Counted from the stretch's first letter, positions 45,136 through 64,000 are shown. The stretch: 64,000 nt of DNA from Candidatus Manganitrophus noduliformans (GCF_012184425.1 NZ_VTOW01000002.1:1-64000); one strand, 5' to 3'. A program made the numbers and translations. The notes: generated by a model from the sequence alone, not told the origin.

Positions 45136-45276
45136 TGGACCTCACTAACATACCAAAAAGTAAAATAACACGATTGATTTTCAACATGCAATAGAGATCT
45201 TCAACCTAACCCGGCATTGCCGAAACCGAAAAGACGTTAAACACTCGTGAATCGTTAAACGGATTCCATTTCTGAA

Positions 45277-46368
45277 TCAATGGAATGTTTGAAACTTTTC
45301 GTTCACGTAACTTTTTATTTTTTCTTTGAACACTTCTTTATCAAACTGTTCTGCGTGCCGCCGGATGTTCTGAGGGTCAAACGACATCTTCTCAAAACGA
45401 TGAATCGCATCGATCAGATCTTCGGTGGTTTTGCCTCTAAAAAAGGTCCCTGTCAGTCCGTCTACGACAGTTTCCAATGCCCCTCCCCGTCCATAAGCAA
45501 TCACGGGCCGGCCGGAGGCCATCGCCTCAACAGGGGCGATTCCGAAATCTTCCTCTCCAGGGAATATAAAAGCCCTGCAATTCCCTAGATATTGTGCTAA
45601 TTCTTCATCCGAAACCCGGCCGAGGAAAACAATATTCTTCTTTGCCATTTTTTTGAGTTTTTCCTCATACGGACCCGTGCCAATGACGACCAATGGCAGA
45701 GATAGCCGATTGAAGGCATTGATGACGAGATCGATCCGTTTGTATGTATTCAATCGCGAAACAACCAAGAAATAGTCGTCCTGCTTTTCTGAAATAGAGA
45801 ATCGGGATAAATCAACGGGAGGATAGATTAAATCGGCTTGGCGGGAATAGAGCCTTCCTATTTTCCGGCAAATATGGCGAGAGATCCCGATATAGTGATG
45901 GACACGGTCAATGGTTTTGAGATCCCAGTTTCTCAAGCGCCAAAGCGCCAAAGGCAAAATCATTTTATAAAATCGATTAAACTCTTCTTGGGCAAGGTAC
46001 GATTCCGTCTCCCAGACAAATCGCATCGGTGTATAACAATAACAGATATGACAAGTCCCTTGCGGCATGGAAGCCCCTTTCGCAAAGGCGCTGCTGCTAC
46101 TGAGAATGACATCATATCCATTCAGGTCAAAACTTTCTATTGCAATCGGGTATAGGAGCAGATATTTCTTGAAGTGCCGGTCGAGAGATGGAAGACGCTG
46201 CATAAAGGAGGGGCGGATGTCCATCCGTGAGAAGACCGGCGGGAGCTTCTCGGGAAGAAAAATTGATGTATAAATCGGTGCATCTGGAAACACCTCGTGC
46301 ATGGCCTCAACCACCCTTTCCGCCCCGCCGTATTGATTGAGATAATCATGGATGATGGCTATTTTCAT
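45277..46368 (-). CDS. Glycosyltransferase, GT4 family
   Basis: Retaining GT-B enzyme starting MKIAIIHDYLNQYGGAERVV. The sugar-nucleotide loop lies in GEEDFGIAPVEAMASGRPVI with the E-x7-E pair. The start at 46368 overlaps the stop of the preceding gene by four bases (ATGA); an in-frame ATG four codons upstream also exists. The wording WDLKTIDRVHHYIGISRHICRK is seen in mannosyltransferases such as WbaZ, fitting the GDP-mannose supply in this locus, but sugar specificity is a guess. Confidence 0.85.
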   Translation of the reverse strand: MKIAIIHDYLNQYGGAERVVEAMHEVFPDAPIYTSIFLPEKLPPVFSRMDIRPSFMQRLPSLDRHFKKYLLLYPIAIESFDLNGYDVILSSSSAFAKGASMPQGTCHICYCYTPMRFVWETESYLAQEEFNRFYKMILPLALWRLRNWDLKTIDRVHHYIGISRHICRKIGRLYSRQADLIYPPVDLSRFSISEKQDDYFLVVSRLNTYKRIDLVINAFNRLSLPLVVIGTGPYEEKLKKMAKKNIVFLGRVSDEELAQYLGNCRAFIFPGEEDFGIAPVEAMASGRPVIAYGRGGALETVVDGLTGTFFRGKTTEDLIDAIHRFEKMSFDPQNIRRHAEQFDKEVFKEKIKSYVNEKFQTFH

Positions 46369-47513
46369 TTGGGAAGACAAGTAGACTCATTTGAATAAAC
46401 ATTCTGGTAAAGGATTTTCAGAATTTCTCTTGCTGTTATCTCCCAGCCAAAACATTGCGCTCTTTCAAAGCCTTTAGTGACCAATAATTCTTTTAAGCCT
46501 GGCTTTGTAACTACCTGGAATATCCCTTCTGCTATAGATTCAACCCGGTAAGGATCGACATAAAAAGCCGCCTCTTGACAGACTTCCGGTAAACTTGAGA
46601 GGTTAGAGGTAATCACCGGACATCCACATCCCATTGCTTCCAACAAAGGTAAACCAAAACCTTCATAAAGCGAAGGAAAAACAAGGGCCGCTGCTTCCGA
46701 GTAGAGACTCGGTAAATCTTGTTCAGGGACATAGCCCATAAAAATTACTTTTTCTTTTAGAGAAAGCTGTTCGATTTTTTTCTCAAGGAGAGGGTAAAAT
46801 CTAGAGTCTTTTTTCCCGGCAATCACAAATTTGAAATCATTTAAATGTAAACTACCGAAAGCTTCGATACTTTTTTCCAAGTTCTTATAGGGCCTCAAGT
46901 CCCCGACGAAAAGAAGGTATTTAGTAAAACCATATTTTTTTCTTATAATTCCCTTCTCTTGAGGGTGGAACTTTTTTTTATCAAATCCAACTGGAACAAC
47001 ATGGATCGGCTTATCATAAGACTTATAGAAATTAAGGACATCTTTCTTGGTATTTTCAGAGTCACAGATCACCGCACATGAATTTTTTAAAAGGAGCGGT
47101 AAATTATAAAGATAGTGGTATTTTAACCTTGGGAATAATTCCGGGAATTTAATAGGTATTAAATCATGAATAGTTATAATCTGCTTTGCATATGGGAATA
47201 GGATCCCTTCCGGAACAGTAGAGTACAATAAAGAGGCATTTTGATTTCGGAGTCTTAATGGCAAAGTTTGCAACCAGAGAATTCTTGCTAAGTGCCCCTT
47301 AAATCCCAGTTCTGGGGAAATCGGGCTTTTAACCTGATTAACTCGATTAGGATAAAGATCTTTTAATTGTTTTGAATTTGAAAAAACAATAAAATCAAGT
47401 TCATAGGAATACTTTAACAGTTCGGTCAGTACTTCGCTTGTATAAATACCTAGACCAGTTGGCCTGTCATGTGTAAAAGTTGCGTTTATAGCTATTTTCT
47501 GTTTGATTTTCAT
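46365..47513 (-). CDS. Glycosyltransferase, GT4 family, AT-rich gene
   Basis: A 382-residue GT-B enzyme: IAINATFTHDRPTGLGIYTS N-terminus, HDLIPIKFPELFPRLK acceptor loop, LLFVGDLRPYKNLEKSIEAF and the donor motif PSLYEGFGLPLLEAMGCGCP with the E-x7-E pair. The base composition is much richer in A/T than the flanks, and the wording is most like mannosyltransferases of O-antigen clusters. Overlaps the next gene by four bases. Directly downstream of the IS remnant. Confidence 0.85.
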   Translation of the reverse strand: MKIKQKIAINATFTHDRPTGLGIYTSEVLTELLKYSYELDFIVFSNSKQLKDLYPNRVNQVKSPISPELGFKGHLARILWLQTLPLRLRNQNASLLYSTVPEGILFPYAKQIITIHDLIPIKFPELFPRLKYHYLYNLPLLLKNSCAVICDSENTKKDVLNFYKSYDKPIHVVPVGFDKKKFHPQEKGIIRKKYGFTKYLLFVGDLRPYKNLEKSIEAFGSLHLNDFKFVIAGKKDSRFYPLLEKKIEQLSLKEKVIFMGYVPEQDLPSLYSEAAALVFPSLYEGFGLPLLEAMGCGCPVITSNLSSLPEVCQEAAFYVDPYRVESIAEGIFQVVTKPGLKELLVTKGFERAQCFGWEITAREILKILYQNVYSNESTCLPK

Positions 47514-47660
47514 AGAATTAGCTTATGGAGGTGGAGATCCTAAAAGAGATCGTAGGTAGTTTTATCTTTGTGAAAAAAATCGGGAGGACAGTCTTTGCTT
47601 GCATATGGAGGGTAGTTCCTGTATGAGAATGAGGTTGATCCAAAGCAATTAAGAACCCAC

Positions 47661-48777
47661 GGGACTGTCCAAAATTTTGTGTAAACCAGACCGGTTCCTA
47701 GTGAGGCCACAATCTCAGGAATGCGGTCTTTGAAAATGAGTTTCAATTGTCCGAGCTTCACTGCCCACCCGGTTTTACCGGGGAAGCGCCCCTCTTCGGG
47801 CTGCTTCGGCGTTCTCCAGGTTGGAGGCTCGATAGATTTCCTTCAGGTCCACTGTAAATTCTTTCTGATATTTAGATGCGATATAACGAAGCGAGGCTCG
47901 GATCTGATGCACGATACACAATTGAACCATCGTCTGGGGAAAAATATTCGCAATCGCCTCCGGAAATCCTTTGAGTCCATCCACACAGGTGATTAAGATA
48001 TTCTTGACTCCGCGGGCCTTTAAATCGGTTAAGACCGCCTGCCAGAAATGGGCCCCTTCCGATTCGGAGAGCCAGATCCCCAATACATCGCTTTTGCCTT
48101 CTATATCAATGCCAAGACAGGTGTAAGCCGCCTTGGAGATGATCTTGCCTTCCTGCCTGACTTGTAAAAAATGGCGTCCATAAACAGGACAGGATACACA
48201 TCGCACAGCGGCCGGGTCTGCCATTGATGGATCCCTTCTAAAATCTTATCAGTGACTTTAGAAATCAGAGCGGCAGAGACAGTGGTTCCGTAAAACTCCT
48301 CCAACTGGGACTGGATGTCCCGAGTGGTCATCCCACGGGCGTACATGCCGGTGATCCGGCGCTCTAGATCCGGATCAAAGCTCTGATGCTTTTGAATAAT
48401 TGAGGCTCAAAGCTCCCTTTCCGATCACGCGGCACTTCAAGCTCAACCTCGCCAGATGATGTTTTATTGTCTTCTTCGAATACCCGTTCCGGCTATTGTC
48501 GTTCTCACGGTCCACCTTCTTATAGGGCTCAACCTAAGTGGGCTTCCTGTTCCGCTTTTAATATCTGCTCCACCGTGCTCTTGATGATTTCATGAACCAC
48601 GCCATTCGCTCCGGTCAGATCAGACCAAGACAACGACTTTACATTCTTTAGTCTCTCCTGCACTTTGGAAACATCAAATAATTTCTCATCCTGCTCCATC
48701 TCCAGCTCCTCATTGGGATTTAGACAGCAGTCTATCCCATTTGGCTTTGCTGGTTACACAAAATTATAAACACTCCC
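47661..48777. mobile_element. Decayed IS256-family insertion sequence
   Basis: Terminal inverted repeats are visible: GGGACTGTCCAAAATTTTGT at the left end (47661) and, reading inward from 48777 on the minus strand, GGGAGTGTTTATAATTTTGT at the right. Flanking bases GAACCCAC (left) and CAACCCTA (right) share AACCC at the same offset, possibly a worn 8-base target duplication. The element is ~1.1 kb, shorter than an intact IS256 member (about 1.3 kb or more), because the transposase gene inside has lost an internal segment. Confidence 0.85.
47715..48699 (-). pseudogene. IS256-family transposase, multiple frameshifts and an internal deletion
   Basis: The N-terminus MEQDEKLFDVSKVQERLKNV starts at ATG 48699. 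The frame then breaks at a TGA after EAHLG, shifts again near the IQKHQSFDPDLERR segment (48385-48400) and again at FMDAIFYK/VRQEGKIISK (~48170). The DDE region is partly present (GIDIEGKSDVLGIWLSESEG, ITCVDGLKGFPEAI) but the segment with the last acidic residue is missing; the C-terminal end WAVKLGQLKLIFKDR follows directly after NLENAEAA. Clearly inactive. Confidence 0.88.
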
Positions 48778-48904
48778 CAACCCTAGTAAACCTGTTATCA
48801 GAATTACAATTAGGTCAATCCTTTTTTAACAAAGAAAACCTTCATAGGACTTTCCTTTTCATTCATTTATTTCAATACCATGATTGTTCAAAACAGTGAA
48901 TACT

Positions 48905-50155
48905 TCATACAATTTCTATTTCAGGAAAAGGGAAGATCATTTTCCCGCCATTAGCCAGATATTCCTTTTCTCGTTGGAGGATTCCAGCCTTAAAATGCCA
49001 TGGAAGGACAAGAAAATAATCTGGCTTCATTGCACGCGCATCTTCTTCAGAAAGAATGGGGATATGTGTTCCCGGAGTGAAGCAGTTAAACTTGTCCGGG
49101 TTAACGTCCGCGATTGCAGGAATATCTTTCTCAGTAAACCCACAGAACTGTAGGACCACATTTCCCTTTGTCGATGCGCCATAACCCAGTATTTTTTTCC
49201 CGTCGGCATTGAGAGCACGAATTAACCGTATTAGGTCTTCACGATGCCGAAATACTCTCTCTTCAAAATCCCGATATGGCTTGGGTGTATTTAAGCCCAT
49301 ACGCTCTTCCTGCTCCAAAAGCCAGTTAATCACCGAATGATTGATTTTGATATTTCGGTTCGAAGCTTTTATCGCCGTAACCGCAAAACTCCCGCCATTG
49401 ACCGCATTCATCATGACATCCATCAGCTTGAGTCCAGCTATCTCGATAATTTTCTTAACAACACCGAGCGAGTAATACTCCAAATGTTCATGGCAGATCG
49501 TATCATATGAATTAAGGCGCAACATCGATGGCATGTAACTTTGCTCAAAATGCCAAATTCCATCGTCTGCCAGAATAGACTCAATCTGTCTTGCAAACTC
49601 CACAGGTGCTTCCAAGTCGTAGAACATAGCAATGGAGGTCACAATTCGGGCGGGACGCTTCTCGACAGAATGATAAACTTCAGAAGAAAAAAAGTCAGGA
49701 ACTAGTTTGATCTCCTTCGTATAATATTGCTGGAATTTTCTTCCGGTCGGATCGATGCCGATTCGTTGAATTCCGCTTACGGAATATGCTTTTAAGGTGG
49801 TTCCATCATTGCTCCCGATATCTAGAACAATGTCGCCCGATTTTAACGCGATCATCCTTTCAAGACACCTCACCTTTTCGGAAAGATGATTGACCATAGA
49901 TTGGTTGAGTCCAGAACGGTAGCCGTAGTTCTCACCATACATCTCATTCGATGAGTATGAATGGCGCAATTGCAGGAGCCCGCTGTTAGGGCACCAGACG
50001 AGTTCTAAAGGTCCTGCCGTAATTTGATCTGACTTATTCTTGGGGAACACTCCCGTCAACACCTGATGCCCCAGATTTAACACTGACACCAGATGGTTGC
50101 TTCCACTCACCCGGCAACCAGGAATCTCTCTATAAGCAGCCATATAACCTCGCAC
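48905..50155 (-). CDS. Sugar C-methyltransferase-like SAM enzyme
   Basis: A 416-residue protein with the three-part layout of NDP-sugar C-methyltransferases such as TylC3 and NovU: N-terminal zinc-type domain (CRVSG and WCPNSGLLQLRH; one of the usual cysteines is serine), SAM domain with IVLDIGSNDGTTLKAYSVSG, and the C-terminal Methyltransf_14 domain (KKILGYGASTKGNVVLQFCG). EHLEYYSLGVVKKIIEIAGL is also typical. It may add a methyl branch to a 4-keto sugar made by Gmd. Lies beside the IS remnant in the AT-rich part of the locus. Confidence 0.85.
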   Translation of the reverse strand: MRGYMAAYREIPGCRVSGSNHLVSVLNLGHQVLTGVFPKNKSDQITAGPLELVWCPNSGLLQLRHSYSSNEMYGENYGYRSGLNQSMVNHLSEKVRCLERMIALKSGDIVLDIGSNDGTTLKAYSVSGIQRIGIDPTGRKFQQYYTKEIKLVPDFFSSEVYHSVEKRPARIVTSIAMFYDLEAPVEFARQIESILADDGIWHFEQSYMPSMLRLNSYDTICHEHLEYYSLGVVKKIIEIAGLKLMDVMMNAVNGGSFAVTAIKASNRNIKINHSVINWLLEQEERMGLNTPKPYRDFEERVFRHREDLIRLIRALNADGKKILGYGASTKGNVVLQFCGFTEKDIPAIADVNPDKFNCFTPGTHIPILSEEDARAMKPDYFLVLPWHFKAGILQREKEYLANGGKMIFPFPEIEIV

Positions 50156-50237
50156 CTTAATAAATCATTTAACTCTCTTGCCTTTCCCTAATTAGCCCAA
50201 CCGGCTCAATCATAGGAAAAGTTTAAAATTCGACTCT

Positions 50238-52820
50238 TTATCCTTGCATCAGTCGATCTAGTTCAATGACATTTTTCGTGAAGCCCTCAAATGAGTGTAA
50301 CCCTCTGACGAAATCCAGCACATTTTCTTGATGCTTTAAAACCTCATTCCTATTTTCCGCCGTATAAATAACATAATTAGAAAAAGAATCTATATCAGCA
50401 AAGGGCGCAATCAGCAGGTGCCTTGAAATTTCTCCAAGTTCATTCGTTATCAGTGGATTCTCCATGGCTACGATAGGACAGCGATACTCCAAGGCCTCCA
50501 AGACCTGTGTGGGAAAATTTCCCTCAAACTCTGAGGTGAACGCCAAGCAAACTGCATTTTTGTAGAGCCAAGATAGCGTGCTGTCACTTATACCAGGAAA
50601 AAGGTGAATAGATGGCTCAAGTCTTTCTTTCCTGATCAGATCCCATAAGGGAGGTGGTATATCCCCACAGGTAAAAGTCAATTCAAGAAGAAGATCAGGG
50701 CGCAATTTATTAATCAGAATCCAGGACCGGATTAGCAAATCGAGGCGCTTGTTTGGATGAGGTTGAGTTGGGTAAAATATAAATTTTTTCTCGGACAGTT
50801 TGCTGATAACTTTATGGTCTGATTTTTCCTCGCCAACATCTTTTCTTATACTCAAGAAAGGCATAGGAAAGGCGACAATTTTTTCCTTGGGTACTCTCAG
50901 TGGACAATTAGGCAAATATTCCGTGGTAAACGCTGAATTGGTCAAAACCCTTGTCGAAAGCCCGACTACCTTACGCCCCACCTCCAGATGGGAACCATCT
51001 TCAGGGAAATAGTTCCTTCCCTTGAAAAGATAAGGCATGTAATCCGGAATATACGATAAAACACGATCAAAACCAGCCGTCAGCACTTCTGGAAAAAGGT
51101 AGTAATGTGGTATGATGACATACCTCCATGGTGCCGACCGTGTTCCGCACACTCGAACGTGATTTTGGGGTTGCTCCCTTATTTTTTTTCTTAGAACGCT
51201 ATTTTTTATAGCAAGGACCTTGTTAGTTAATTTAATAACCTTAGCCCTAAGACATGCCGCGCTATAAACCGCTTTATTTTGAATACGAAGTAAGACACGA
51301 TATAAACCCACGAGGATCAGTTCAATTAAATTTAGGGTTGACGGATTATGTATATGCCGATCTCGGATACTCCTGAAAAATGAGGACCTTCCAACAAAGA
51401 ATTTAAGGACCTTTGAAATAATTCCTTCATTCTTTTTAATCGCCACTTCTTGGGCTTTCGTAACTCCTATTCCTAAATCGTCTACTGAGACGACCGAAAC
51501 TAAATCGGGGTTATCACACTGAGATGAATAGAAACCGTGTGTGTTAATGAGATCATCAGACCACGCTGTCACAACGACGGGAACATTAACTGAAGTGAGT
51601 GCCCTGACAAATTGCCTCATAACACGCGGGATACCATGCATCGTACTATATTCCCCGTTCGAAAAGACATACGCGCCCCTGAAATGGGCGAATAGCAATA
51701 CGGGCGATGGCGCAAATCTCTCGCTGCTTTTCTTGTTAATAGCCGCTGAGGCACTCTTCGGTGGGCCTGTCCCATCTAAAATCTCGGAGATTACCCTTCT
51801 GAAAACCGGCAAACCAAATGATTTTGAGTATCTTTCAACGATGGGAGGCTGGCTTGCTATGATTTCGGTCACGAATTGACTGTCGCCCTTTATTAATAGT
51901 TTTGCTTTCCTTAGTGCTTCATCTTCGTTCCATACTAAACCAGGCGTTTTTGCATTAAAATATCGATGCAATAGCGATCCAGAAAAATATAAGACCGGTC
52001 CCCCAAAAACCATCATCTCGATTGGTGGTAAAAAACACACGTTACGCTCACGGTATGTGTAAAGATATCCTGAAAGAAAAAGAAACTCCTCTAAATACCT
52101 TTCTCTCGGCAGGGTGCCCACAACATTCGGATCAGCATTTTCTTCGAGCTGGGCTCCAAAATAGCGAAAACATCTTTGCTCAAAATATGCTTTTAGATAA
52201 TTAAAATGTCCCTGATAATAAGGATTGGTTATGTTTGGGCAAGTCAATCCAATATGAGGTTTCTTCGGTTTTCTATGCTCCCATTTTCCCTGAAGCGCAA
52301 ATACATCGTCTGTCAGCCAGTATGGACAGACTTTTAATTTGTTTTTTAACCAATGCTGTTCATCAGAAGCTGTTTCCTCGCAGTGTGGAACAAACCAGAA
52401 GTTTTCACGTTCCTGAATAAGTTTATATCCCCCGTTGTGCAAAAGACTTTCGCTTAAAATTCCGATTTGCCCATACGTTCTATAAATTATAGTCTTCTTA
52501 AAAACTTCTAATATAGAGACGAGCCAGTCAGGATTAATCGTCACAATTATTGCATCGAAATATTCATTTAATATCTCCGCAACCTCATTACTAATCGAAT
52601 TGTAAAAAAAGTTATACTTCGATAATTTTTCATAGATGTCCTCGGGCAAACTCGATTCACTCTGAGTCCAATTTAATTCCGCCGATTGGTCTTGAACATT
52701 GCTTAAATATGGTGGATTAAATACCTCATATCCCATCTCGCGCAAGGCAGGCAATTCAGTCCGCACCAACACCTTATGCATGCCGAGCCAAAATATTCTT
52801 TTCTTATTCATTGTGTTCAT
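50238..52820 (-). CDS. Two-module glycosyltransferase
   Basis: An 860-residue protein. The N-terminal ~335 residues resemble CgeB/DUF3880-type GT-B halves (PHIGLTCPNITNPYYQGHFN, VCFLPPIEMMVFGGPVLYFS). After a Lys/Ser linker, residues ~360-860 form a GT4-like unit with YPTQPHPNKRLDLLIRSWIL and the donor motif TSEFEGNFPTQVLEALEYRC. Between the two is a long loop with Arg/Leu-rich helices (~470-560). Two catalytic modules in one chain suggest a bifunctional polymerising or disaccharide-adding enzyme, as in other ABC-dependent O-antigen loci, but specificity is unknown. Confidence 0.78.
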   Translation of the reverse strand: MNTMNKKRIFWLGMHKVLVRTELPALREMGYEVFNPPYLSNVQDQSAELNWTQSESSLPEDIYEKLSKYNFFYNSISNEVAEILNEYFDAIIVTINPDWLVSILEVFKKTIIYRTYGQIGILSESLLHNGGYKLIQERENFWFVPHCEETASDEQHWLKNKLKVCPYWLTDDVFALQGKWEHRKPKKPHIGLTCPNITNPYYQGHFNYLKAYFEQRCFRYFGAQLEENADPNVVGTLPRERYLEEFLFLSGYLYTYRERNVCFLPPIEMMVFGGPVLYFSGSLLHRYFNAKTPGLVWNEDEALRKAKLLIKGDSQFVTEIIASQPPIVERYSKSFGLPVFRRVISEILDGTGPPKSASAAINKKSSERFAPSPVLLFAHFRGAYVFSNGEYSTMHGIPRVMRQFVRALTSVNVPVVVTAWSDDLINTHGFYSSQCDNPDLVSVVSVDDLGIGVTKAQEVAIKKNEGIISKVLKFFVGRSSFFRSIRDRHIHNPSTLNLIELILVGLYRVLLRIQNKAVYSAACLRAKVIKLTNKVLAIKNSVLRKKIREQPQNHVRVCGTRSAPWRYVIIPHYYLFPEVLTAGFDRVLSYIPDYMPYLFKGRNYFPEDGSHLEVGRKVVGLSTRVLTNSAFTTEYLPNCPLRVPKEKIVAFPMPFLSIRKDVGEEKSDHKVISKLSEKKFIFYPTQPHPNKRLDLLIRSWILINKLRPDLLLELTFTCGDIPPPLWDLIRKERLEPSIHLFPGISDSTLSWLYKNAVCLAFTSEFEGNFPTQVLEALEYRCPIVAMENPLITNELGEISRHLLIAPFADIDSFSNYVIYTAENRNEVLKHQENVLDFVRGLHSFEGFTKNVIELDRLMQG

Positions 52821-52952
52821 TTAAAAATAAGGCGAGAAGTTTTTAGCCAGCCTTTCATTTTTATAAAATTATTTATGACCAATATCACCGATCGCATATC
52901 TTGAGGCGGAACCTCTAAGGACTGATTGTACATGACTGTTCTATTTGATTGG

Positions 52953-54011
52953 TCATCTTTTTTCAATTGTTCTCACAGATTGCTTAACGAAAAGATTTGC
53001 CCTGCGTAGTGGCTCCGTAATGCGCCAGGACAGGCTGCTATATACCGCTTTGAGTTCTAACTCACGAACTTCTAAGCTTTGCCGAAAATGCGAAGCCATT
53101 TTTTTTGCCTCAGCAAGCTCCTTCTCAACCACTTGAAGATCCACTCGTGACTCAAATAAACTCTTCTCAAGACAAGCAACGTGCTCTTGAATGATTTTTA
53201 GTTTTTCACGCAAATCACCACTTTCAATTTGCAATTTAGCAACTTCATTTTCCAGTTCCTCAACACGCTTCTGCGTGCGAGTGGCCTCGGCCTCTAGTTT
53301 CTGGACCTGTTGACCCGCCAACCATTCAGAGTGGCGAATAAAGTGATCAAAATAATTTGGAGGTTTAGACAATATTTCCTTAAGCGGTGCTTTTCGTTCA
53401 TCAGCCAGATAGTACCGATTGAGCCCATCGAAGCAGGCAAATTCATAACCACGGCTAGTCAACAAGTCTTCCCATTGCTCATATGTAGGAACAGTCGAGT
53501 TCGGTTCAGTGGACTCAAGCAATATAACCCAAGGTCTAATGCGTGTCAGATCAATCCCAGCCAAAACTGCGCGTTCAGCCCCTTCCACATCGATCTTCAA
53601 AAAGTGAACTACAGTAACATTAAGCTCATCGCAGATTTTATCCAGACGCCGAGCGGGTACTTGGCATTCCCGAATAGTGAAACCTGCTAAGGAATGCTTT
53701 GATGCAAAAGTGGCGTTAAATGTCGACATTCCGGTGTCGACAACCTCATAGAACTGTAAAATTCCATTCTCTGCAGCCGCTGCCACTTTTAAATTTTGAT
53801 CTTGAGGGCGATCTGCAATTAGTTTATTAAACCAGTAATCAATCGGTTCGATATTGATGCCGCGCCACCCACGCTCATAAAAGGCCTTGGTCACCGAATC
53901 GACCACCGGGTCCTGGGCGCCTACGTCAATATAAAAACCGGCACCTATATCACCTAATGCGCGATAGAGGATCACATCTTCATAGTTTTGGGCGTAGGAA
54001 ATGAACGTCAT
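52953..54011 (-). CDS. FkbM-family methyltransferase with C-terminal coiled coil
   Basis: Residues ~1-215 are an FkbM methyltransferase: ISYAQNYEDVILYRALGDIG, FYIDVGAQDPVVDSVTKAFY (SAM loop) and VHFLKIDVEGAERAVLAGID. Residues ~225-325 are a long coiled coil (LEAEATRTQKRVEELENEVA, KLQIESGDLREKLKIIQEHV, AEAKKMASHFRQSLEVRELE), ending in SLSWRITEPLRR, a motif common at the ends of such proteins. The gene overlaps wzt by 32 bases. By analogy with WbdD, it may cap the chain with methyl and measure its length through the coiled coil; this is inference. Confidence 0.88.
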   Translation of the reverse strand: MTFISYAQNYEDVILYRALGDIGAGFYIDVGAQDPVVDSVTKAFYERGWRGINIEPIDYWFNKLIADRPQDQNLKVAAAAENGILQFYEVVDTGMSTFNATFASKHSLAGFTIRECQVPARRLDKICDELNVTVVHFLKIDVEGAERAVLAGIDLTRIRPWVILLESTEPNSTVPTYEQWEDLLTSRGYEFACFDGLNRYYLADERKAPLKEILSKPPNYFDHFIRHSEWLAGQQVQKLEAEATRTQKRVEELENEVAKLQIESGDLREKLKIIQEHVACLEKSLFESRVDLQVVEKELAEAKKMASHFRQSLEVRELELKAVYSSLSWRITEPLRRANLFVKQSVRTIEKR

Positions 54012-55233
54012 GCGTATGAACCTCTATAATGGGTGGAACCCAGGCGTTGCCAACGAAGATTGGTTTGTCTAGATTAGTCACTGTAAATACCAGCGCCAAG
54101 TCTTTCCATTCATAGTTATTAACAAGGTGAGTATCAGTACTAACTAATGCTGTAGAAATCGAGTAACTGCCGGGACCAAAATTCATGGGAAACTGTATTC
54201 GATATAGAATCGACTGACCATGCAGCACGCCTTTAAGTTCTTGTTTTGTATGATACGTGTTGGTCCCATAGACGTACTGGCCAAGCCGGTCTTTGATAGC
54301 ATATCCCAGTACCAAACACGGAATGTCGGCATATGCCTTCACATTTACGCGCAACTCTACAGGCTCTCCAACATTGACAAATTCAACTCGTTTACCCGCA
54401 GTATTGAAAAGGGCGATTTCTTCAACACGTGCCTCGCCCGTACCGGATATAATTTGTGTTTTGCCGCTTTCATGCTGCAAAAGCTGAACACTTTGATTCT
54501 CTTTTTCTGCAATCAGGGCATTGTAGAAGTCCATCACCGCTTCAGGGTTGCTGTCCTGAATAACGCGGCCTTTCTCCAGTAGAATAGCTCGATCACACAA
54601 GGTTTGCACCGCCGACTTGTCGTGCGAAACGATCAGAAACGTGGTACCTTGCTCCTGAAATTCCTTGATGCGCCGAAAGCTTTTATGTTGAAAGTACGCA
54701 TCACCCACAGAAAGCGCTTCGTCGACAATCAGGATCTCCGGTCTGAATGCGGTTGCGACAGCAAAGGCGACACGCATCTGCATCCCGCTGGAATACGTCC
54801 GCATCGGTTGGTTAAAATACTCCCCAATCTCAGCAAACTCCTCGATTTCTGGCATTATTGCCTCAATCTCCAAGGAAGTAAATCCCATTAAACCTGCCGA
54901 GTGGCAGGCATTTTGTCGTCCTGTTAATTCCGGGTTAAAACCCATACCCAATTCCAGGATAGCAGCTATACGGCCATTGATTTGTACGTTTCCTTCAGTA
55001 GGTCTCAGTGTTCCCGTAATAAGTTTAAGAAGAGTGCTCTTACCAGCGCCGTTCTGACCAACAACCCCCACGGCCTCTCCCGGTTCAACAGTAAAAGAGA
55101 TGTTTCGAAGTACCCAGTGTTCGGCTAAAGGGCGGATAGGTAAGCCAAACCAAGAAAGAACTCTGCCCCATTCACTCGCATAGTGACGGAATGCTTTCCC
55201 AAGACCAGTGACACAAAGCGTTCCCTGACTCAC
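53980..55233 (-). CDS. wzt: O-antigen ABC exporter ATP-binding protein with C-terminal binding domain
   Basis: The N-terminal ~240 residues are an ABC ATPase: Walker A GQNGAGKSTLLKLITG, signature YSSGMQMRVAFAVA, Walker B ILIVDEALSVGDAYF. Residues ~260-417 form a Wzt_C-type beta-sandwich (EEIALFNTAGKRVEFVNVGE, GYAIKDRLGQYVYGTNTYHT), which in E. coli O8/O9a Wzt recognises the capped non-reducing end of the glycan. Overlaps wzm by four bases and the FkbM gene by 32, so all three are one unit. Confidence 0.93.
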   Translation of the reverse strand: MSQGTLCVTGLGKAFRHYASEWGRVLSWFGLPIRPLAEHWVLRNISFTVEPGEAVGVVGQNGAGKSTLLKLITGTLRPTEGNVQINGRIAAILELGMGFNPELTGRQNACHSAGLMGFTSLEIEAIMPEIEEFAEIGEYFNQPMRTYSSGMQMRVAFAVATAFRPEILIVDEALSVGDAYFQHKSFRRIKEFQEQGTTFLIVSHDKSAVQTLCDRAILLEKGRVIQDSNPEAVMDFYNALIAEKENQSVQLLQHESGKTQIISGTGEARVEEIALFNTAGKRVEFVNVGEPVELRVNVKAYADIPCLVLGYAIKDRLGQYVYGTNTYHTKQELKGVLHGQSILYRIQFPMNFGPGSYSISTALVSTDTHLVNNYEWKDLALVFTVTNLDKPIFVGNAWVPPIIEVHTHDVHFLRPKL

Positions 55234-56024
55234 AAGACATCCACTATTTCTGGACTGGCTTTACGAAACATGTATAGTGCCATAATCAGCAATATGGCCG
55301 CAAAGATGGATACCCAGCCCAATCCCCCCCAGTATGGTGTTTTCCCAAAAACTAAAACGTTTTGGTAGGCTGTTACAATTGGATACATTGGGTTCAGACT
55401 AAGCCAACCTCTGAATCTTTCCGGAATAATACCGGACATATAAACAATTGGGGTAAGCCAAAACCAAAACTGAAAAATAACAGGTACAATCTGCCCCACA
55501 TCGCGAATGAACACATTGAGTATTCCCAAAATTAAGCCAAGACCAATTGCTAACGCAATATTCAAAGCGATCAAAGTAGGCAACAAGAGAAGTGATCTAC
55601 CTGGAATATGATCAAACAAAGAGAACACAACTAGGGTAGCTAAAAGGAGCGCAATATTACTGACAAGCGCACTCCCAGAAACGATCAATGGCAAACAGAT
55701 CTTTGGAAACACGAGCTTCTTTAAAAGGTTGCCATTTTCCAAAAATATATTTAAACAACGCATTACAATTTCAGAAAATAAAGACCATGCTAACATTCCC
55801 GCCATCAAATAAGAGGCATATCCATAGGCGCTCTCGATCCCTGGGAGTTTTGTTGATAATACTACCGACAAAACAAATGCATATATAGCAACTTGGGCAA
55901 GGGGATGAAGTAACATCCAAACCAGGCCTAATTTGCTTCGAGCATAGCGAGCTAAAAGCTCTGTCTTTATTGAAGAAATAATAAATTGCCTGTAATGCCA
56001 AGCTCCTTTAAAAGTTCCCTTCAT
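55230..56024 (-). CDS. wzm: O-antigen/polysaccharide ABC exporter permease
   Basis: A 264-residue ABC-2 type permease with six membrane helices, beginning with the amphipathic HYRQFIISSIKTELLARYAR segment and KLGLVWMLLHPLAQVAIYAF. The sequence pattern PIVYMSGIIPERFRGWLSLN is typical of Wzm/TagG. It works with Wzt to move the lipid-linked glycan across the inner membrane. Overlaps wzt by four bases. Confidence 0.93.
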   Translation of the reverse strand: MKGTFKGAWHYRQFIISSIKTELLARYARSKLGLVWMLLHPLAQVAIYAFVLSVVLSTKLPGIESAYGYASYLMAGMLAWSLFSEIVMRCLNIFLENGNLLKKLVFPKICLPLIVSGSALVSNIALLLATLVVFSLFDHIPGRSLLLLPTLIALNIALAIGLGLILGILNVFIRDVGQIVPVIFQFWFWLTPIVYMSGIIPERFRGWLSLNPMYPIVTAYQNVLVFGKTPYWGGLGWVSIFAAILLIMALYMFRKASPEIVDVL

Positions 56025-56202
56025 GACTAATCCGAATTAAAAGTAAATGCCAAAGGAACGTTAAAAATAGTCCAGATTGAGAAAACTAGAGTTTCTGATA
56101 GTGAGGTTCAGCGGGAGGCTCGGTTTATTTGAAATTAGCGCTAAGATCATTCCCAAAAACCCGATATCCTACAATTAGCTATAAATTTTAGACATGAGTG
56201 TT

Positions 56203-57195
<993 letters not shown>

Positions 57196-57207
57196 TTAAG
57201 TTCTCTT

Positions 57208-58551
57208 CTAACGGATGAGCTTTGCTAAAAGTCCATTCACGTATTCTTGAATTTCAGTAACCCTGATCCCACTGCTCGCTTCAAACCGCAATACCAATGC
57301 CGGCTGGGTATTCGAGGCTCGAATCAATCCCCAACCATCCTCGAACAAAACCCGAACGCCATCGATATCGACCGTCTTATATTTGCCGGAGAAATATTCC
57401 CGGCACTTTTCGACCACTGCGAACTTCCGATCATCCGGACAATCGACCCGAATCTCCGGGGTGACATAGGTCTTAGGGAGGTCAATGAAAAAAGACGAAA
57501 GAGGCCGATTCTCCTTCACAAGAATCTCCACCAGCCGACACCCTGCATAAATCGCATCATCATACCCAAAATACCGATCTGCAAAAAAGAGATGGCCGCT
57601 CATCTCCCCGGCCAACAGCGCCCCGGTTTCTTTCATTTTGGATTTGATCAAAGAGTGCCCGGTCTTCCACATGATCCCGTTGCCGCCGAGGCGTGAAATT
57701 TCATCATAAAGGACTTGAGAAGCCTTAACTTCGGAGATGATGGTCGCTCCTGGATTTCGTTTGAGAATATCAGTCGCGAAAAGGAGGGTGAGCTTATCCC
57801 CCCAAATGATCTCCCCCTTTTCATCGACGGCGCCCAGCCGATCTCCATCCCCATCAAACGCAATGCCGACATCCGCCCGTTCTTTCCGGACACATTCAAT
57901 AAGGTCAGCAATATTTTCGGGAACGGTTGGATCGGGATGATGATTTGGGAATCGGCCATCCGGTTCGCAATAGAGCGGAATCACTTCACATCCCAACTTT
58001 TCCATAATCCGAGGAGCGATGAGGGCGGCGGCGGCGTTTCCGCAATCGACCACCACTTTTTTTGACCGGAAGGAACCGAAGTGCTTCACAAAGTAGTTGA
58101 GGTAAACAGAGAGAAAATCGCGTTCAAAGGTCAGTTCCCCCTTCCCCCGGTCGAAATCGCCGCTCTCCGCCATCGTGCGGACTTGCTGGATCTCGGCGCC
58201 GAAGAGGGTCCCTTTCCCGCGGCAGAGTTTGAACCCATTGAATTCGGCCGGATTGTGGCTGGCGGTGATCATCACCCCGCCGTCGACTTGCAAGTTGAAG
58301 AGAGAAAAATAGAGGACCGGTGTCGGACAGGCGCCGATATCGACCACATCGATACCGGTCGAGAGGAGTCCCGCCAACAATGCTTCCCGAAGCGAAGGGC
58401 TGCTGAGACGAATATCATAGCCGAGCGAGATCTTTTTTCCGCCGGATCGGCGGATCAGCGTGGCGAAGGCCTTCCCGATCTCTTCGGCTACCTTCTCGGT
58501 CAGGACAGTTCCGTAAACCCCTCGGATGTCATACTCTCTAAAGATCGACAT
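57208..58551 (-). CDS. manB: Phosphomannomutase/phosphoglucomutase
   Basis: Interconverts hexose-6- and hexose-1-phosphates. N-terminal FREYDIRGVYG, the phospho-serine loop GGVMITASHNPAEFNGFK, the metal loop AFDGDGDRLGAVDEKG, the sugar-specificity loop GEMSGHLFFADRYFG and the C-terminal RASNTQPALVLRFEA are all present. Length 447 residues. It ends the GDP-mannose supply step with manC, two bases apart. Confidence 0.95.
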   Translation of the reverse strand: MSIFREYDIRGVYGTVLTEKVAEEIGKAFATLIRRSGGKKISLGYDIRLSSPSLREALLAGLLSTGIDVVDIGACPTPVLYFSLFNLQVDGGVMITASHNPAEFNGFKLCRGKGTLFGAEIQQVRTMAESGDFDRGKGELTFERDFLSVYLNYFVKHFGSFRSKKVVVDCGNAAAALIAPRIMEKLGCEVIPLYCEPDGRFPNHHPDPTVPENIADLIECVRKERADVGIAFDGDGDRLGAVDEKGEIIWGDKLTLLFATDILKRNPGATIISEVKASQVLYDEISRLGGNGIMWKTGHSLIKSKMKETGALLAGEMSGHLFFADRYFGYDDAIYAGCRLVEILVKENRPLSSFFIDLPKTYVTPEIRVDCPDDRKFAVVEKCREYFSGKYKTVDIDGVRVLFEDGWGLIRASNTQPALVLRFEASSGIRVTEIQEYVNGLLAKLIR

Positions 58552-58553
58552 GG

Positions 58554-59975
58554 TCAGCCCTTCTTGGCCTCCACCCGCCCGTAATCATCCTGATACCGGA
58601 CGATGTCGTCTTCTCCGAGATAATTCCCGCTCTGCACCTCGATGATCTGGAGCGGCTCATCGCCCGGATTTTCCAGCCGATGCTTCACCCCCATCGGGAC
58701 AAAGGTGCTCTGGTTGGCCTGAATGGTATAAACACTCTCCCCGCAGGTGACCCGCGCCGTTCCCGCGACCACGACCCAATGCTCGCTCCGCTTATGATGC
58801 ATTTGAAGGGAAAGACGCGCCCGAGGATTGACCAGAATTCGCTTGATTTTGTAATCGCGTCCCTCTTCCAGAACGGTATAACTTCCCCAGGCGCGGATGA
58901 CTGTTCTGTGAACGCGGTGCTCATCGCCGTTGCGGCCTTTCAGCGCCTCAACGACCTTCTTGACCTCCTGCGCCTTATCCTTCGAACAGATGAGGGTTGC
59001 ATCCTCCGTATCGGCCACGACAATGTCTTTCAGCCCCACCACGGCCACGACCCGCTTTTGTCCGTAGATGATGCTGTTGGAGCTGCCGATGTTGACGACA
59101 TTTCCGGTGAGGATGTTCCCATTTTCATCCCGTTCGATCACTTCATCGAGCGCGCTCCAGGAGCCGACATCTTCCCACCCCATGTCGGTGGAGATCACGG
59201 CGAGGCGATCCGACTTCTCCAAAACGGCATAGTCGATCGAGATGGAGGGAAGCGTCGGATAAACCCGCGCAAGCGCTTCCGCTTCCTCCGCCGTTCCGAT
59301 CTTCTGTTCAATCTCCTTCAAACCCTCCGACAGCTCAGGAACAAACTGCTTGATCTCCGCCAAAATCGTTGAGATCTTCCAGAGGAAGATGCCGGTATTC
59401 CAGAAATGATCTTCTCTCTTTAGATATTGTTCGGCGGTTTCACGGTTCGGTTTTTCAACGAAGCGCTGTACGGTCGATGCACCGGGCTGATTCGGAAAGG
59501 GCTTTCCCTTTTGGATATAACCGTAGCCGGTCTCCGGCCGGGTCGGCTTGGCGCCTAAGGTGACAAGATAACCTTCATCGGCAAGGCTTTCTCCCAAACG
59601 AAGCGCCTCGATAAAAACCTGCGGCTCCCTGATAAAGTGATCGGCGGAGAGAACCGCCATGACGCCGTCCTGAAAGCGCTTGCGTAGGTAGGTCGCCGCC
59701 AGGCCGATGGCGGCCGCCGTGTTCCTCCCCATCGGTTCATAGATAAAGTGAGGCCCCTCTCGGGAAGGCTTCAGCTGGAATTTGATCTGCTCCGCCTGAG
59801 AAGGGTTGGTGGCGATATAGGTCTGATTGGACGGGATCAGGTCGGCGATCCGGGACAGGGTGGCCTGAATGAGACTCTGATTGCCGAAGATCTTTAAGAG
59901 CTGCTTTGGGTATTCTTCCCGGCTGAGCGGCCAAAAGCGCGTTCCACTACCCCCTGCCAGTATCACTCCGTACAT
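58554..59975 (-). CDS. manC: Mannose-1-phosphate guanylyltransferase/mannose-6-phosphate isomerase
   Basis: A bifunctional type II PMI/GMP. The N-terminal nucleotidyltransferase has ILAGGSGTRFWPLSREEYPK and a KPNRETAEQYL-type sugar segment (~155-172). The C-terminal cupin (MHHKRSEHWVVVAGTARVTC) is the isomerase domain. With manB and gmd it makes GDP-mannose and GDP-4-keto-6-deoxymannose for the polysaccharide. First gene of this run; the promoter is at 60099-60127. Confidence 0.95.
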   Translation of the reverse strand: MYGVILAGGSGTRFWPLSREEYPKQLLKIFGNQSLIQATLSRIADLIPSNQTYIATNPSQAEQIKFQLKPSREGPHFIYEPMGRNTAAAIGLAATYLRKRFQDGVMAVLSADHFIREPQVFIEALRLGESLADEGYLVTLGAKPTRPETGYGYIQKGKPFPNQPGASTVQRFVEKPNRETAEQYLKREDHFWNTGIFLWKISTILAEIKQFVPELSEGLKEIEQKIGTAEEAEALARVYPTLPSISIDYAVLEKSDRLAVISTDMGWEDVGSWSALDEVIERDENGNILTGNVVNIGSSNSIIYGQKRVVAVVGLKDIVVADTEDATLICSKDKAQEVKKVVEALKGRNGDEHRVHRTVIRAWGSYTVLEEGRDYKIKRILVNPRARLSLQMHHKRSEHWVVVAGTARVTCGESVYTIQANQSTFVPMGVKHRLENPGDEPLQIIEVQSGNYLGEDDIVRYQDDYGRVEAKKG

Positions 59976-61021: not shown

Positions 61022-62158
61022 TCATGCCGGTAGAAACCGGATCATGCTCGGTTGCCGCGACATCGCATCCAGATGGAGCAGATAACGATCGATCTCGACG
61101 ATGACCTCCTCTGCGGTCGTCTCCTCCAGGCAACGACTCCGCTTGCTTCCCCCGCAACCATCCTGTCCGCAGGGAAGGCAGGAGAAATCTTTTGCGAGCG
61201 TCGTATGACCCGCCCCCCATGGCCTCCAGATCTCGGCGACGGACGGCCCGAAGAGAGCGATCACCGGCGTTGCCATTGCCGCAGCGATATGCATGGGGGC
61301 GCTGTCAACACCGAAAAAGAGATCGGCCCGCCGAGAAAGAGCCGCCAGTTCCCTCAAGCTGGTCTGACCGACCAGGTTCATCGGCCGGCGCTTCGAAAAA
61401 GAGAGGATCCGCTCGATCTTCTCCCGCTCGGCCGGGGCCGGTCCTCCCGTTACCACCACATCAACATTCCTCTCCCCGATCAGATGATCGATCACGGCCC
61501 CCATCGCATCGTCCTGCCAGCATTTAAAAAACAATCGGGAGGTCGGATGGATCTGGACGAGATAGCGCCCCTCCTGCTGTCGCGCTTCCGACCAACCTTG
61601 CGCCGTCAGCAATGAGACGACCCGATCCTCCTCTTCTTTCGAAAAGAAGAGCTGCGGCCGCTTCTCGATCGGTTCATAACCGAGCGAACGAATCGATTCG
61701 AGATGTCGCTCGACCGCGTGGGTATGCGGCGTCGGCACGCGATAGCGATGAGTGTAGATCAGCCGCATCAATAAGGGGAACCGCTCCCTGGGGAGAAGCC
61801 CTAACCGACGAGGGGCGCCGGAGAGAAGCGACAGGAAAAGACCCCGGTCTCCCGTTGTCAGATTGACCGCCAAATCGGCCTTCGTCTCGCGGATCTCGCT
61901 TAACATGAGGCGCTCCCGCCACAGCCGCTCCATTAAGGGAAGTCCTTTCCATTTCGGATCGACCACGACGATTCGATCGACGAATGGATTTCCCTCCAGG
62001 ACCGGCGCCGACTCCTTGAAAACAACGACCGACAGGCGCGACCCGGGAAAGGCTTCCTTGAAGGCACGGATTGTCGGAGTCGCCAGAAGAACGTCCCCGA
62101 TCTGCCGGAAAAGCATGAGCAAGACGCTCTTGATCGCCTCTGGTCGGAAATCGATCAT
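61022..62158 (-). CDS. Glycosyltransferase family 9, heptosyltransferase-like
   Basis: A 378-residue GT9 protein. N-terminal SVLLMLFRQIGDVLLATPTI and RAFKEAFPGSRLSVVVF, and C-terminal FFGVDSAPMHIAAAMATPVI then ALFGPSVAEIWRPWG, are the family's donor and acceptor signatures. A Cys-rich tail, DFSCLPCGQDGCGGSKRSRC (~335-355), is common in lipopolysaccharide heptosyltransferases. Supports a lipopolysaccharide-bearing outer membrane. Confidence 0.9.
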   Translation of the reverse strand: MIDFRPEAIKSVLLMLFRQIGDVLLATPTIRAFKEAFPGSRLSVVVFKESAPVLEGNPFVDRIVVVDPKWKGLPLMERLWRERLMLSEIRETKADLAVNLTTGDRGLFLSLLSGAPRRLGLLPRERFPLLMRLIYTHRYRVPTPHTHAVERHLESIRSLGYEPIEKRPQLFFSKEEEDRVVSLLTAQGWSEARQQEGRYLVQIHPTSRLFFKCWQDDAMGAVIDHLIGERNVDVVVTGGPAPAEREKIERILSFSKRRPMNLVGQTSLRELAALSRRADLFFGVDSAPMHIAAAMATPVIALFGPSVAEIWRPWGAGHTTLAKDFSCLPCGQDGCGGSKRSRCLEETTAEEVIVEIDRYLLHLDAMSRQPSMIRFLPA

Positions 62159-62195
62159 TCTTGTCCCGTTTCCCGCAGCGCCATCCGAAGTCCGA

Positions 62196-62741
62196 TCACA
62201 TCCGGATCATCATCAACGCCAAGATGACCACGATTCCCAGCCAGGTTCGATGCTCCCGATGTTTCAAAACCAACCCCCAGTCGAACCCGGTTTCAACCTG
62301 CCGCCACGCGCTCCAACGGGGGAAGAAACGGGGAACCGACTCGGCATAGGCGGAGAACTGCGAGCCGAAACGGGCCGAGAGCTTCTCCTCTTCCCGCAAA
62401 ATCGTGAAATGATAGATCAATGCAAAGAACATCAAAAACAAGAGGAGAAGACCCCAGCTGCGCCCCATCAAAATAAAGCCGAACCCCATCATCCCGCTTC
62501 CGAGATAAAGGGGATTTCGGGTGAAAGCATAGGGGCCGGTCGTCGCCAGTTCCTGATTCTTCCGGATATGTCCCGACGACCACGTTCGGATCGCTTCCCC
62601 CAAAATGACAAAGGGCGCCCCCGCGGCGATGGAAAGGAGGGTCGGCCTGGAGAGAAACCAAAGGGCGCCCCCCAACAACAGGCTGACGATAATCCGATTC
62701 CGGCTGACGATCGCCCCGATACTACCGATGATCTTTCCCAT
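62196..62741 (-). CDS. Isoprenylcysteine carboxyl methyltransferase-like membrane protein
   Basis: A ~181-residue protein with five to six hydrophobic helices and the ICMT/PEMT signature GPYAFTRNPLYLGSGMMGFG, then LREEEKLSARFGSQFSAYAE (EE and Y residues of the SAM/lipid site). The start MGKIIGSIGAIVSRNR at 62741 is preferred; it overlaps the end of the GT2 gene by 20 bases. Bacterial members methylate lipids or have unknown targets. Confidence 0.8.
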   Translation of the reverse strand: MGKIIGSIGAIVSRNRIIVSLLLGGALWFLSRPTLLSIAAGAPFVILGEAIRTWSSGHIRKNQELATTGPYAFTRNPLYLGSGMMGFGFILMGRSWGLLLLFLMFFALIYHFTILREEEKLSARFGSQFSAYAESVPRFFPRWSAWRQVETGFDWGLVLKHREHRTWLGIVVILALMMIRM

Positions 62742-63489
62742 ACCGTCCCATCTTGTAGAGCTTTGCATATTTTGCAAAGGTATAAGTACTGTAGAGCCGG
62801 CCCAACAACAGGCCGTCGCCCCCATCTCGAAAACCCTGCCGGAGAACCACCATCTTCAGAAAGGTGGCCGGCGGCCGCAGGAAGAGATCGAGGAGATTGG
62901 CCCGCTTCCCCGCCTCGAACATCTCCTCCGCCGCCAGGGTCGAATAGCGGTCCATCCGCCGGAAGTAATCCTCCAAAGAACGATAGGTGTAATGCGCCAG
63001 CGGGGATCGGAGGGTTCCGATTTCTCCGCGAATCGTCACCGACTCATGGACTTTTCTCTCGCCGAACCGGCCGGCCTCCCGCTTGAAAAAACGGAGAACA
63101 TAATCGGGATGCCACCCCCCGTGTCGAATCCAGCGTCCCAGAAAGAAATTTTTTCTTGGGATGCGGTAGCCGTCGGCGTGGCGGGGCGATTCCAGAATCT
63201 GCTCGATCTCTCCCCGAAGCTCCGGACTCACCCGTTCGTCCGCATCCAGGCTCAACACCCACGGGTGGGTCGCCAATTCGAGCGCCCGGTTTTTCTGGGC
63301 GGCATAACCCGTCCACGCATAGGAGAAAACTTTATCGGTATATTTCCCGGCAATCTCCACCGTCCGGTCGGAGCTTCCGGAATCGACGACCACAATCTCG
63401 TCGGCCCACGCCGCGCTGTCAAGACAGTCGCCGATCTCCTTCTCTTCGTTCAGCGTGATCACCGTGACGGAGAGCTTCGGACGGCTCAT
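62722..63489 (-). CDS. Glycosyltransferase family 2 (WaaE/KdtX-like)
   Basis: A 255-residue GT-A enzyme: SVTVITLNEEKEIGDCLDSA, IVVVDSGSSDRTVEIAG with the nucleotide-binding aspartates and WVLSLDADERVSPEL with the D-x-D. The remainder (YRIPRKNFFLGRWIRHGGWH; LRSPLAHYTYRSLEDYFRRM) closely matches the LPS core beta-1,4-glucosyltransferase WaaE. Overlaps the GT4 gene upstream by four bases. Confidence 0.9.
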   Translation of the reverse strand: MSRPKLSVTVITLNEEKEIGDCLDSAAWADEIVVVDSGSSDRTVEIAGKYTDKVFSYAWTGYAAQKNRALELATHPWVLSLDADERVSPELRGEIEQILESPRHADGYRIPRKNFFLGRWIRHGGWHPDYVLRFFKREAGRFGERKVHESVTIRGEIGTLRSPLAHYTYRSLEDYFRRMDRYSTLAAEEMFEAGKRANLLDLFLRPPATFLKMVVLRQGFRDGGDGLLLGRLYSTYTFAKYAKLYKMGRYGKDHR

Positions 63490-64000
63490 TGGCGCCCATC
63501 CAACAAAATTCCTTTCGTGCGGAGGATCTCCTTGTAGAACCGCTCATGTTCCCGAACCATCCCTTGAACAGAGAAATCGGTAACCGCCCGCGAACGGGCC
63601 GCCGCCGACAAAGATCGCCCCAATCCCTCATCACGCAGGAGCCGAACGATCCCCTCCTTGAGGCGCCTCGGCTCCTTCGGCTCGACAAGGAGGGCCTCCA
63701 CACCGTCGGAGACGATCTCACGCGCCCCCTCGTAATCGGCGCAGACGATCGGCAATCGGGCCGCCATTGCTTCGACCAGCGCGATCCCCTGCCCCTCCCA
63801 GAGGGAAGGAAAGACAAAAAGATCGAGGGCGCTCAAGCAATCGGGAACGTCGCGGCGGGTTCCCAGAAAAAAGACGACCTTCTCCAATCCCATCTGCTGA
63901 ACCGTCTGTGTCAACTCCTCCCGAAGCGGGCCGTCTCCGATGAGAACCAGCCGAAGATCGGGCCGTCCCTCTTCATCCATCAGAAGCCGGAAAGCGCTCA
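63486..64000 (-). CDS. Glycosyltransferase GT4, 5' end beyond the window
   Basis: The C-terminal ~170 residues of a GT4 enzyme: LRLVLIGDGPLREELTQTVQ, FPSLWEGQGIALVEAMAARL with the E-x7-E donor site, and VRDLLRDEG-like C-terminal helices. The frame is open to the window's right edge (last bases encode ...SAFRLLMDEEGRPD), so the N-terminal half is missing. Overlaps the GT2 gene by four bases. Confidence 0.85.
   Translation of the reverse strand, partial: SAFRLLMDEEGRPDLRLVLIGDGPLREELTQTVQQMGLEKVVFFLGTRRDVPDCLSALDLFVFPSLWEGQGIALVEAMAARLPIVCADYEGAREIVSDGVEALLVEPKEPRRLKEGIVRLLRDEGLGRSLSAAARSRAVTDFSVQGMVREHERFYKEILRTKGILLDGRQ

Follow-up and report, generated by a model that had tools for sequence, protein, structure and literature searches.

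An FkbM methyltransferase on an E. coli O8 WbdD-type chassis as a predicted O-antigen chain terminator and ruler beside a cap-reading Wzt

In E. coli O8, WbdD is a methyltransferase-only terminator that works without a kinase (PMC3482155). It combines a class I methyltransferase, a coiled coil and the motif SRSWRITQPLR with a tail that ends in MTSRAMSIYNELKNKN, and its gene stands in the order manC-manB/rfbK-wzm-wzt-wbdD(methyltransferase)-wbdA(GT), where GT denotes a glycosyltransferase. The WbdD proteins of E. coli O9a and K. pneumoniae O3 are likewise built of an N-terminal capping enzyme and a long coil with an S.SWR motif at its end; the O9a enzyme includes a kinase and makes an anionic methylphosphate cap. 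The O9a coil is reported to measure about 20 nm, and deletions and insertions within it change modal chain length (PMC6286764). Terminators of K. pneumoniae O7 and O12 show the fused order terminator-coil-polymerase (PMC11231755), and on the transporter side the cap-reading pocket of A. aeolicus Wzt has been defined by a complex with 3-O-Me-Man, in which His350 contacts O2 of the cap (PMC9445017).

Here we compare with these systems a locus of Candidatus Manganitrophus noduliformans contained in a stretch of 64,000 nucleotides, referred to below as the window. A minus-strand operon at 48.9-60.0 kb encodes ManC (GDP-mannose pyrophosphorylase/PMI, 58554..59975; Pfam NTP_transferase and MannoseP_isomer), a phosphomannomutase/phosphoglucomutase (PMM, 57208..58551; PGM_PMM I-IV), the GDP-mannose 4,6-dehydratase Gmd (56203..57177; GDP_Man_Dehyd, E=5e-137), the ABC transporter permease Wzm (55230..56024; ABC2_membrane, E=4e-19), the ABC transporter ATPase Wzt with its C-terminal carbohydrate-binding domain (53980..55233; ABC_tran, and Wzt_C at E=1.4e-37), a 352-aa FkbM-coil protein (52953-54011; Methyltransf_21/FkbM, PF05050, E=1.1e-29 over residues 29-191), an 860-aa GT (50238..52820; Glycos_transf_1 at residues 668-826) and a sugar C-methyltransferase (Methyltransf_13/14, 48905..50155; PF08484, E=7.6e-54). 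The three genes wzm-wzt-fkbM form a cassette at 52953-56024, the same span to which the original prediction had been attached. The first 32 nt of fkbM overlap wzt, and we take this overlap as real because relatives begin at the same Met.

G+C content is about 41-45% over most of the operon, up to 58 kb, and 41-47% across window positions 44000-58000 as a whole, versus 53-58% in most of the window, and the fkbM gene is absent from all five same-genus genomes in a search that covered 58 genomes among relatives; this difference in composition, together with same-genus genomes devoid of fkbM, suggests that the operon was acquired. Beside it, at 61022-63998, lie genes for a heptosyltransferase (GT9), a GT2 and a GT4 enzyme, and a Wzy_C-family protein, possibly an O-antigen ligase, is encoded 2 kb beyond the window (G000:C2:65945-66367). 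The Wzy_C family includes O-antigen ligases, and this neighbourhood would fit an LPS setting. On the other side, a WcaJ/WbaP-type sugar-phosphate transferase encoded at 43714-45135 is a possible initiating enzyme in place of WecA, and a Mutator-family transposase remnant (47775-48224) separates the operon from two downstream GT4 genes.

The 352-aa protein opens with a SAM-dependent FkbM (Methyltransf_21) methyltransferase domain (residues 1-214; 53370..54011, minus strand), assigned from Pfam, fold and motifs. It scores 104.3 bits against PF05050 (curated cut-off 22.7) and 70.6 bits against TIGR01444 (cut-off 37.7), and its DVGA, NIEP and KIDVEGAE motifs are nearly invariant in 22 relatives. 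Structure comparison of an AlphaFold2 model (22-sequence input, mean pLDDT 90) returned a class I fold, with Foldseek/VIA matches to many class I methyltransferases, among them the solved FkbM 2py6 (VIA Z 13.8); no WbdD entry stands among the 50 matches listed, which carries no evidential weight. In the model this domain is followed by a single unbroken helix at residues 227-325 (53037..53333, minus strand; about 14.7 nm), a break at residue 326 that coincides with the motif SLSWRITEPLR (326-336), and a second, amphipathic helix at 327-351, whose hydrophobic moment is equalled in 74 of 2000 shuffles; motif and second helix together occupy 52959..53036 on the same strand. The long helix keeps a single heptad register over its entire 99 residues, with 82% of a and d positions hydrophobic and no proline, and its regularity is matched by 0 of 5000 shuffles: the coiled coil, a putative ruler, exceeds chance. 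The anatomy given in the original prediction, an FkbM methyltransferase with a coil of some 100 residues overlapping a wzt with a Wzt_C domain and lying beside GDP-mannose genes (manC, PMM and gmd), is thus borne out, the coil also by structure prediction. An extended coiled coil carries a capping-type enzyme domain at its far end, and Wzm and a Wzt with a cap-reading domain are encoded alongside, as is conserved in relatives. The protein stops 26 residues past the coil-helix break and is devoid of the ~110-aa tail that most relatives carry.

When the wzt-fkbM stretch of the window was used to search E. coli genomes for distant DNA similarity, it matched the O8 wzt. The two loci share the order manC-PMM-wzm-wzt-terminator-GT, gmd being present only in the window, and over 399 aa the window Wzt, including its cap-reading domain, shares 56% identity with O8 Wzt. 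The likeness extends to the methyltransferase-coil-SWR module and, as predicted for the window, to a kinase-free methyl cap. The end motif reads SLSWRITEPLR in the window, SRSWRITQPLR in O8 WbdD and SRSWRMT in O9 WbdD; a profile of the post-coil module from 30 FkbM proteins matches the WbdD proteins of O8 (E=6.7e-14) and O9 (E=5.1e-7), hhalign of the FkbM tail against the O8 tail gives a probability of 97%, and the terminal MTSRAMSIYNELKNKN of O8 WbdD matches the tail of FkbM proteins. The window protein retains the SWR motif of this WbdD post-coil module, the ~110-aa tail being found in the relatives. Furthermore, the GT encoded next to FkbM in locus L045 shares 43% full-length identity with O8 WbdA. 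Homology of the catalytic domains was not found when FkbM and O8-type domains were compared by hhalign (probability 0.2%, E=0.29), and BLAST of O8 WbdD against the relatives matches only through its C-terminal part. In contrast to O8, then, the window has FkbM rather than the O8 class I methyltransferase as catalytic domain, Val instead of His350 in the Wzt pocket, a terminator without the C-terminal tail, and a neighbouring GT that is not WbdA-like; its coil, at about 14.7 nm, compares with about 20 nm for O9a WbdD (PMC6286764). These comparisons identify the window terminator as a putative O8 WbdD chassis with FkbM as the exchanged writer (capping enzyme), only the catalytic domain having been replaced. 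They lend good support to the proposal of a WbdD-like terminator and ruler beside a cap-reading Wzt; the contrast with WbdD that the original prediction drew from FkbM and the lack of a kinase stands as regards the family, which is unrelated, but not as regards the kinase, which O8 WbdD also does without (PMC3482155).

The cap-reading domain of the window Wzt (54040..54450, minus strand) was mapped from that of A. aeolicus, its best solved relative (8dku, E=4e-85), such that N325, S360, A362, V364 and W376 correspond to A. aeolicus N313, T346, A348, H350 and W362. Wzt architecture resembles that of the A. aeolicus Wzm-Wzt structures (8dku, 8dky; 3-O-methylmannose/rhamnose cap), and the methyl pocket Asn313/Ala348/Trp362 is kept as N325/A362/W376, whereas the O2-contacting His350 is absent and replaced by Val364. 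Site 350 is His in all six Wzts linked to O8-type methyltransferases, as well as in O8 and A. aeolicus, while 33 FkbM-linked Wzts with Trp362 have Val or Thr (31) or Cys or Ala (2); the split by writer reaches a Fisher p of 3e-7, a value that overstates independence, with roughly one switch in the trees. Because the domain tree places the FkbM-linked carbohydrate-binding domains next to E. coli O8 and close to one cluster, the counts are not independent, and the covariation of pocket and writer probably reflects one evolutionary event; tests of pocket residue against writer class by phylogenetically independent pairs were limited by too small a number of such contrasts. In a sample drawn by Wzt_C only (116 loci, three phyla), FkbM is linked in three, all with Val or Thr plus Trp, a pattern seen in only one of the 113 others. 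Both combinations meet in one locus, L011:6686-13290, where a wzt with Val at the site accompanies an FkbM-coil gene and a wzt with His accompanies an O8 WbdD-type methyltransferase-coil gene. The Trp signature is lost in the FkbM-linked locus L028, which has an extra FkbM gene, and pockets are altered where a second FkbM lies beside wzt (L007, L111, L038 and L028). This second FkbM is a separate gene in L007, L111 and L028; at L038:5854-7995 the second FkbM-like domain is apparently fused to the C-terminus of Wzt, and an FkbM-coil-GT fusion lies downstream.

A single scan across genome contigs yielded 51 loci. The pairing of FkbM-coil with Wzt_C, a survey of which the original prediction had proposed, recurs, the FkbM-coil gene adjoining wzt(Wzt_C) in 35 of 57 FkbM homologues, and the cassette wzm - wzt(Wzt_C) - fkbM-coil - large GT is found in Pseudomonadota, Cyanobacteriota and desulfobacterial MAGs, as well as in two further genomes from the same class as the window. 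Aligned relatives conserve the FkbM domain and an S.SWR.T.PLR motif, with a spacer of about 20 to 349 residues. The standard end motif is present in 27 of the 35 Wzt_C-linked genes, 44-349 residues past the domain (median 97), and the remainder are truncated, masked, frameshifted, or motif-less yet with a coil-like tail. In four relatives (L014, L022, L037 and L038) FkbM-coil is fused to GT modules in the same module order as K. pneumoniae O7 ORF6 and O12 WbbB, whose catalytic families are other than FkbM; the window protein, unlike these, is unfused. All 15 loci in which the neighbouring enzyme is WbdA-like have the ~110-aa post-coil tail, and six short forms that lack it have no enzyme of this kind beside them (p=0.002, whole table); the window protein would fit this tail-less short class.

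The spread in coil length, about eightfold among relatives (44-349 residues), bears on whether the coil measures anything at all. Were FkbM to cap the chain while the coil only oligomerises or scaffolds, length would be set by enzyme ratios, as it is by stoichiometry in uncapped ABC-exported O-antigens (PMC6286764), and a window protein without the recruitment tail would be in keeping with such a terminator lacking a ruler. We nevertheless regard this as unlikely: coil deletions and insertions in O9a WbdD do shift modal length (PMC6286764), the coil and its SWR end piece are retained when the catalytic domain is exchanged, and the coil is never missing in the Wzt_C-linked copies that were judged. 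The survey's heptad scan is crude and over-calls short coils, and counts were restricted to long runs and to tails anchored by the motif; on this basis every judgeable Wzt_C-linked FkbM protein has a coil, and the loss of the coil in relatives with the same wzt, which would have spoken against the original prediction, was not seen. The clearly coil-less members L041, L049 and L039 have no Wzt_C linkage, and five loci (L003, L015, L033, L036 and L051) carry FkbM-coil without Wzt_C in the flank examined, partly at contig ends.

The 860-aa GT sits in the WbdA position and is not WbdA-like, a BLAST search with O8 WbdA among the proteins of the window matching only the downstream GT4 genes, weakly. 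Its C-terminal half is GT4, residues 368-860 resembling GT4 enzymes in an AlphaFold2 model (VIA Z about 25), and its N-terminal half carries no family assignment; it may act as the polymerase, and a dual-GT polymerase is not claimed, since the middle of the model has a pLDDT below 50. A relative of this GT is encoded together with a C-methyltransferase, and without Wzm, Wzt or FkbM, at L225:7965-11832, in reversed gene order relative to window 48905-52820, and the pedigree of the GT is tied to the C-methyltransferase rather than to Wzt. The presence of the C-methyltransferase and gmd in one locus with FkbM, and of some coil-less FkbM enzymes in loci without Wzt_C (L041, L049), would suit a role for FkbM in decorating internal or side-chain sugars, the cap coming from another source, for instance the C-methyltransferase encoded at 48905-50155. 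FkbM could indeed act at sites other than the chain end, but a decorating enzyme is not expected in the WbdD slot between wzt and GT, together with a WbdD-type end module and a linked change in the cap pocket, and the GT/C-methyltransferase pair also exists without Wzt or FkbM; we consider this reading distinctly improbable. That a WbdD-like system was invented independently here, the "independent solution" of the original prediction, is the least credible account and is rejected on the tail homology to O8 WbdD (E=6.7e-14; hhalign 97%), because, although profile comparison shows no relation between the catalytic domains (0.2%), the post-coil module, Wzt, gene order and the relatives' polymerase are all homologous to O8.

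FkbM is not alone on such a coil. In the Wzt_C sample, wzt is often followed by a gene whose product joins a coil to another kind of N-terminal enzyme. The S.SWR.T.P motif is found after the coil in proteins with FkbM, with several other methyltransferase classes and with sulfotransferase-like classes, the sulfotransferase assignment falling close to or under the Pfam cut-off for some members. Arg occupies the pocket Trp site in 16 of 17 loci with sulfotransferase-like writers (p=1e-9, inflated by shared ancestry), as it does in the O9a Wzt domain 2R5O (methylphosphate cap), unlike the window with its Trp376. Sulfotransferase-like coil proteins directly follow an Arg-pocket wzt at L175:7337-8722, L122:3653-7051, L118:9519-14348, L202:4629-9005 and other sampled loci, and the combination suggests sulfate-type caps. 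A wider reading, plausible although somewhat short of probable, joins these observations into a mix-and-match system, in which the coil and S.SWR.T.P module would accept exchangeable writers (O8-type, FkbM, other class I methyltransferases and sulfotransferase-like enzymes) and the Wzt pocket would track the writer. The corresponding pocket code would pair Trp with methyltransferases, distinguishing O8-type from FkbM by His versus Val at the O2 contact, and Arg with methylphosphate or sulfate; the hydroxyl methylated by FkbM would then differ, O2 being one possibility, and a sulfated chain end would count as a novel export cap.

Overall, the 352-aa protein is likely to be a chain-terminating methyltransferase and ruler, FkbM on the O8 WbdD chassis, a reading that builds on the observed anatomy, homology, gene linkage and covariation. 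The missing post-coil tail, a neighbouring GT unlike WbdA, whose relative in L225 occurs apart from Wzt and FkbM, and the FkbM-coil genes with no Wzt_C in the flank examined weigh against it. As for activity, cap position and length control in this organism, we infer a mechanism in which the SWR motif and the amphipathic helix would tether the C-terminus to the membrane, close to the GTs that polymerise the chain, and the ~15-nm coil (a computed length, with a ruler role modelled on WbdD) would keep the FkbM active site at a distance. Once long enough, the undecaprenyl-linked chain would reach FkbM and receive a methyl directly on a hydroxyl of its terminal sugar. The neutral methyl ether would halt elongation and then be bound by the Wzt carbohydrate-binding domain, in whose pocket the Asn/Ala/Trp methyl readers are kept and Val replaces the O2-contacting His of 3-O-methylmannose readers, and Wzm-Wzt would export the capped chain. 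On our best reading FkbM would add a neutral O-methyl cap, perhaps on a different hydroxyl, and the Wzt pocket would be retuned to recognise it. O2 as its position is a guess, for which support was sought through the FkbM sugar enzyme NoeI; the literature search gave no paper connecting NoeI with FkbM.

A literature search likewise returned no paper joining FkbM with Wzt, with WbdD, or with O-antigen and coiled coil, although an earlier mention is possible. The same catalytic swap occurs in many bacteria, and if the proposed reading is true, the WbdD ruler would be a chassis on which capping chemistry and the transporter's reading pocket swap together. For many surface polysaccharides not yet characterised, cap chemistry, chain-length control and export specificity could then be predicted from sequence, and the natural writer/reader swaps would provide a concrete set for probing how Wzt recognises a finished chain.
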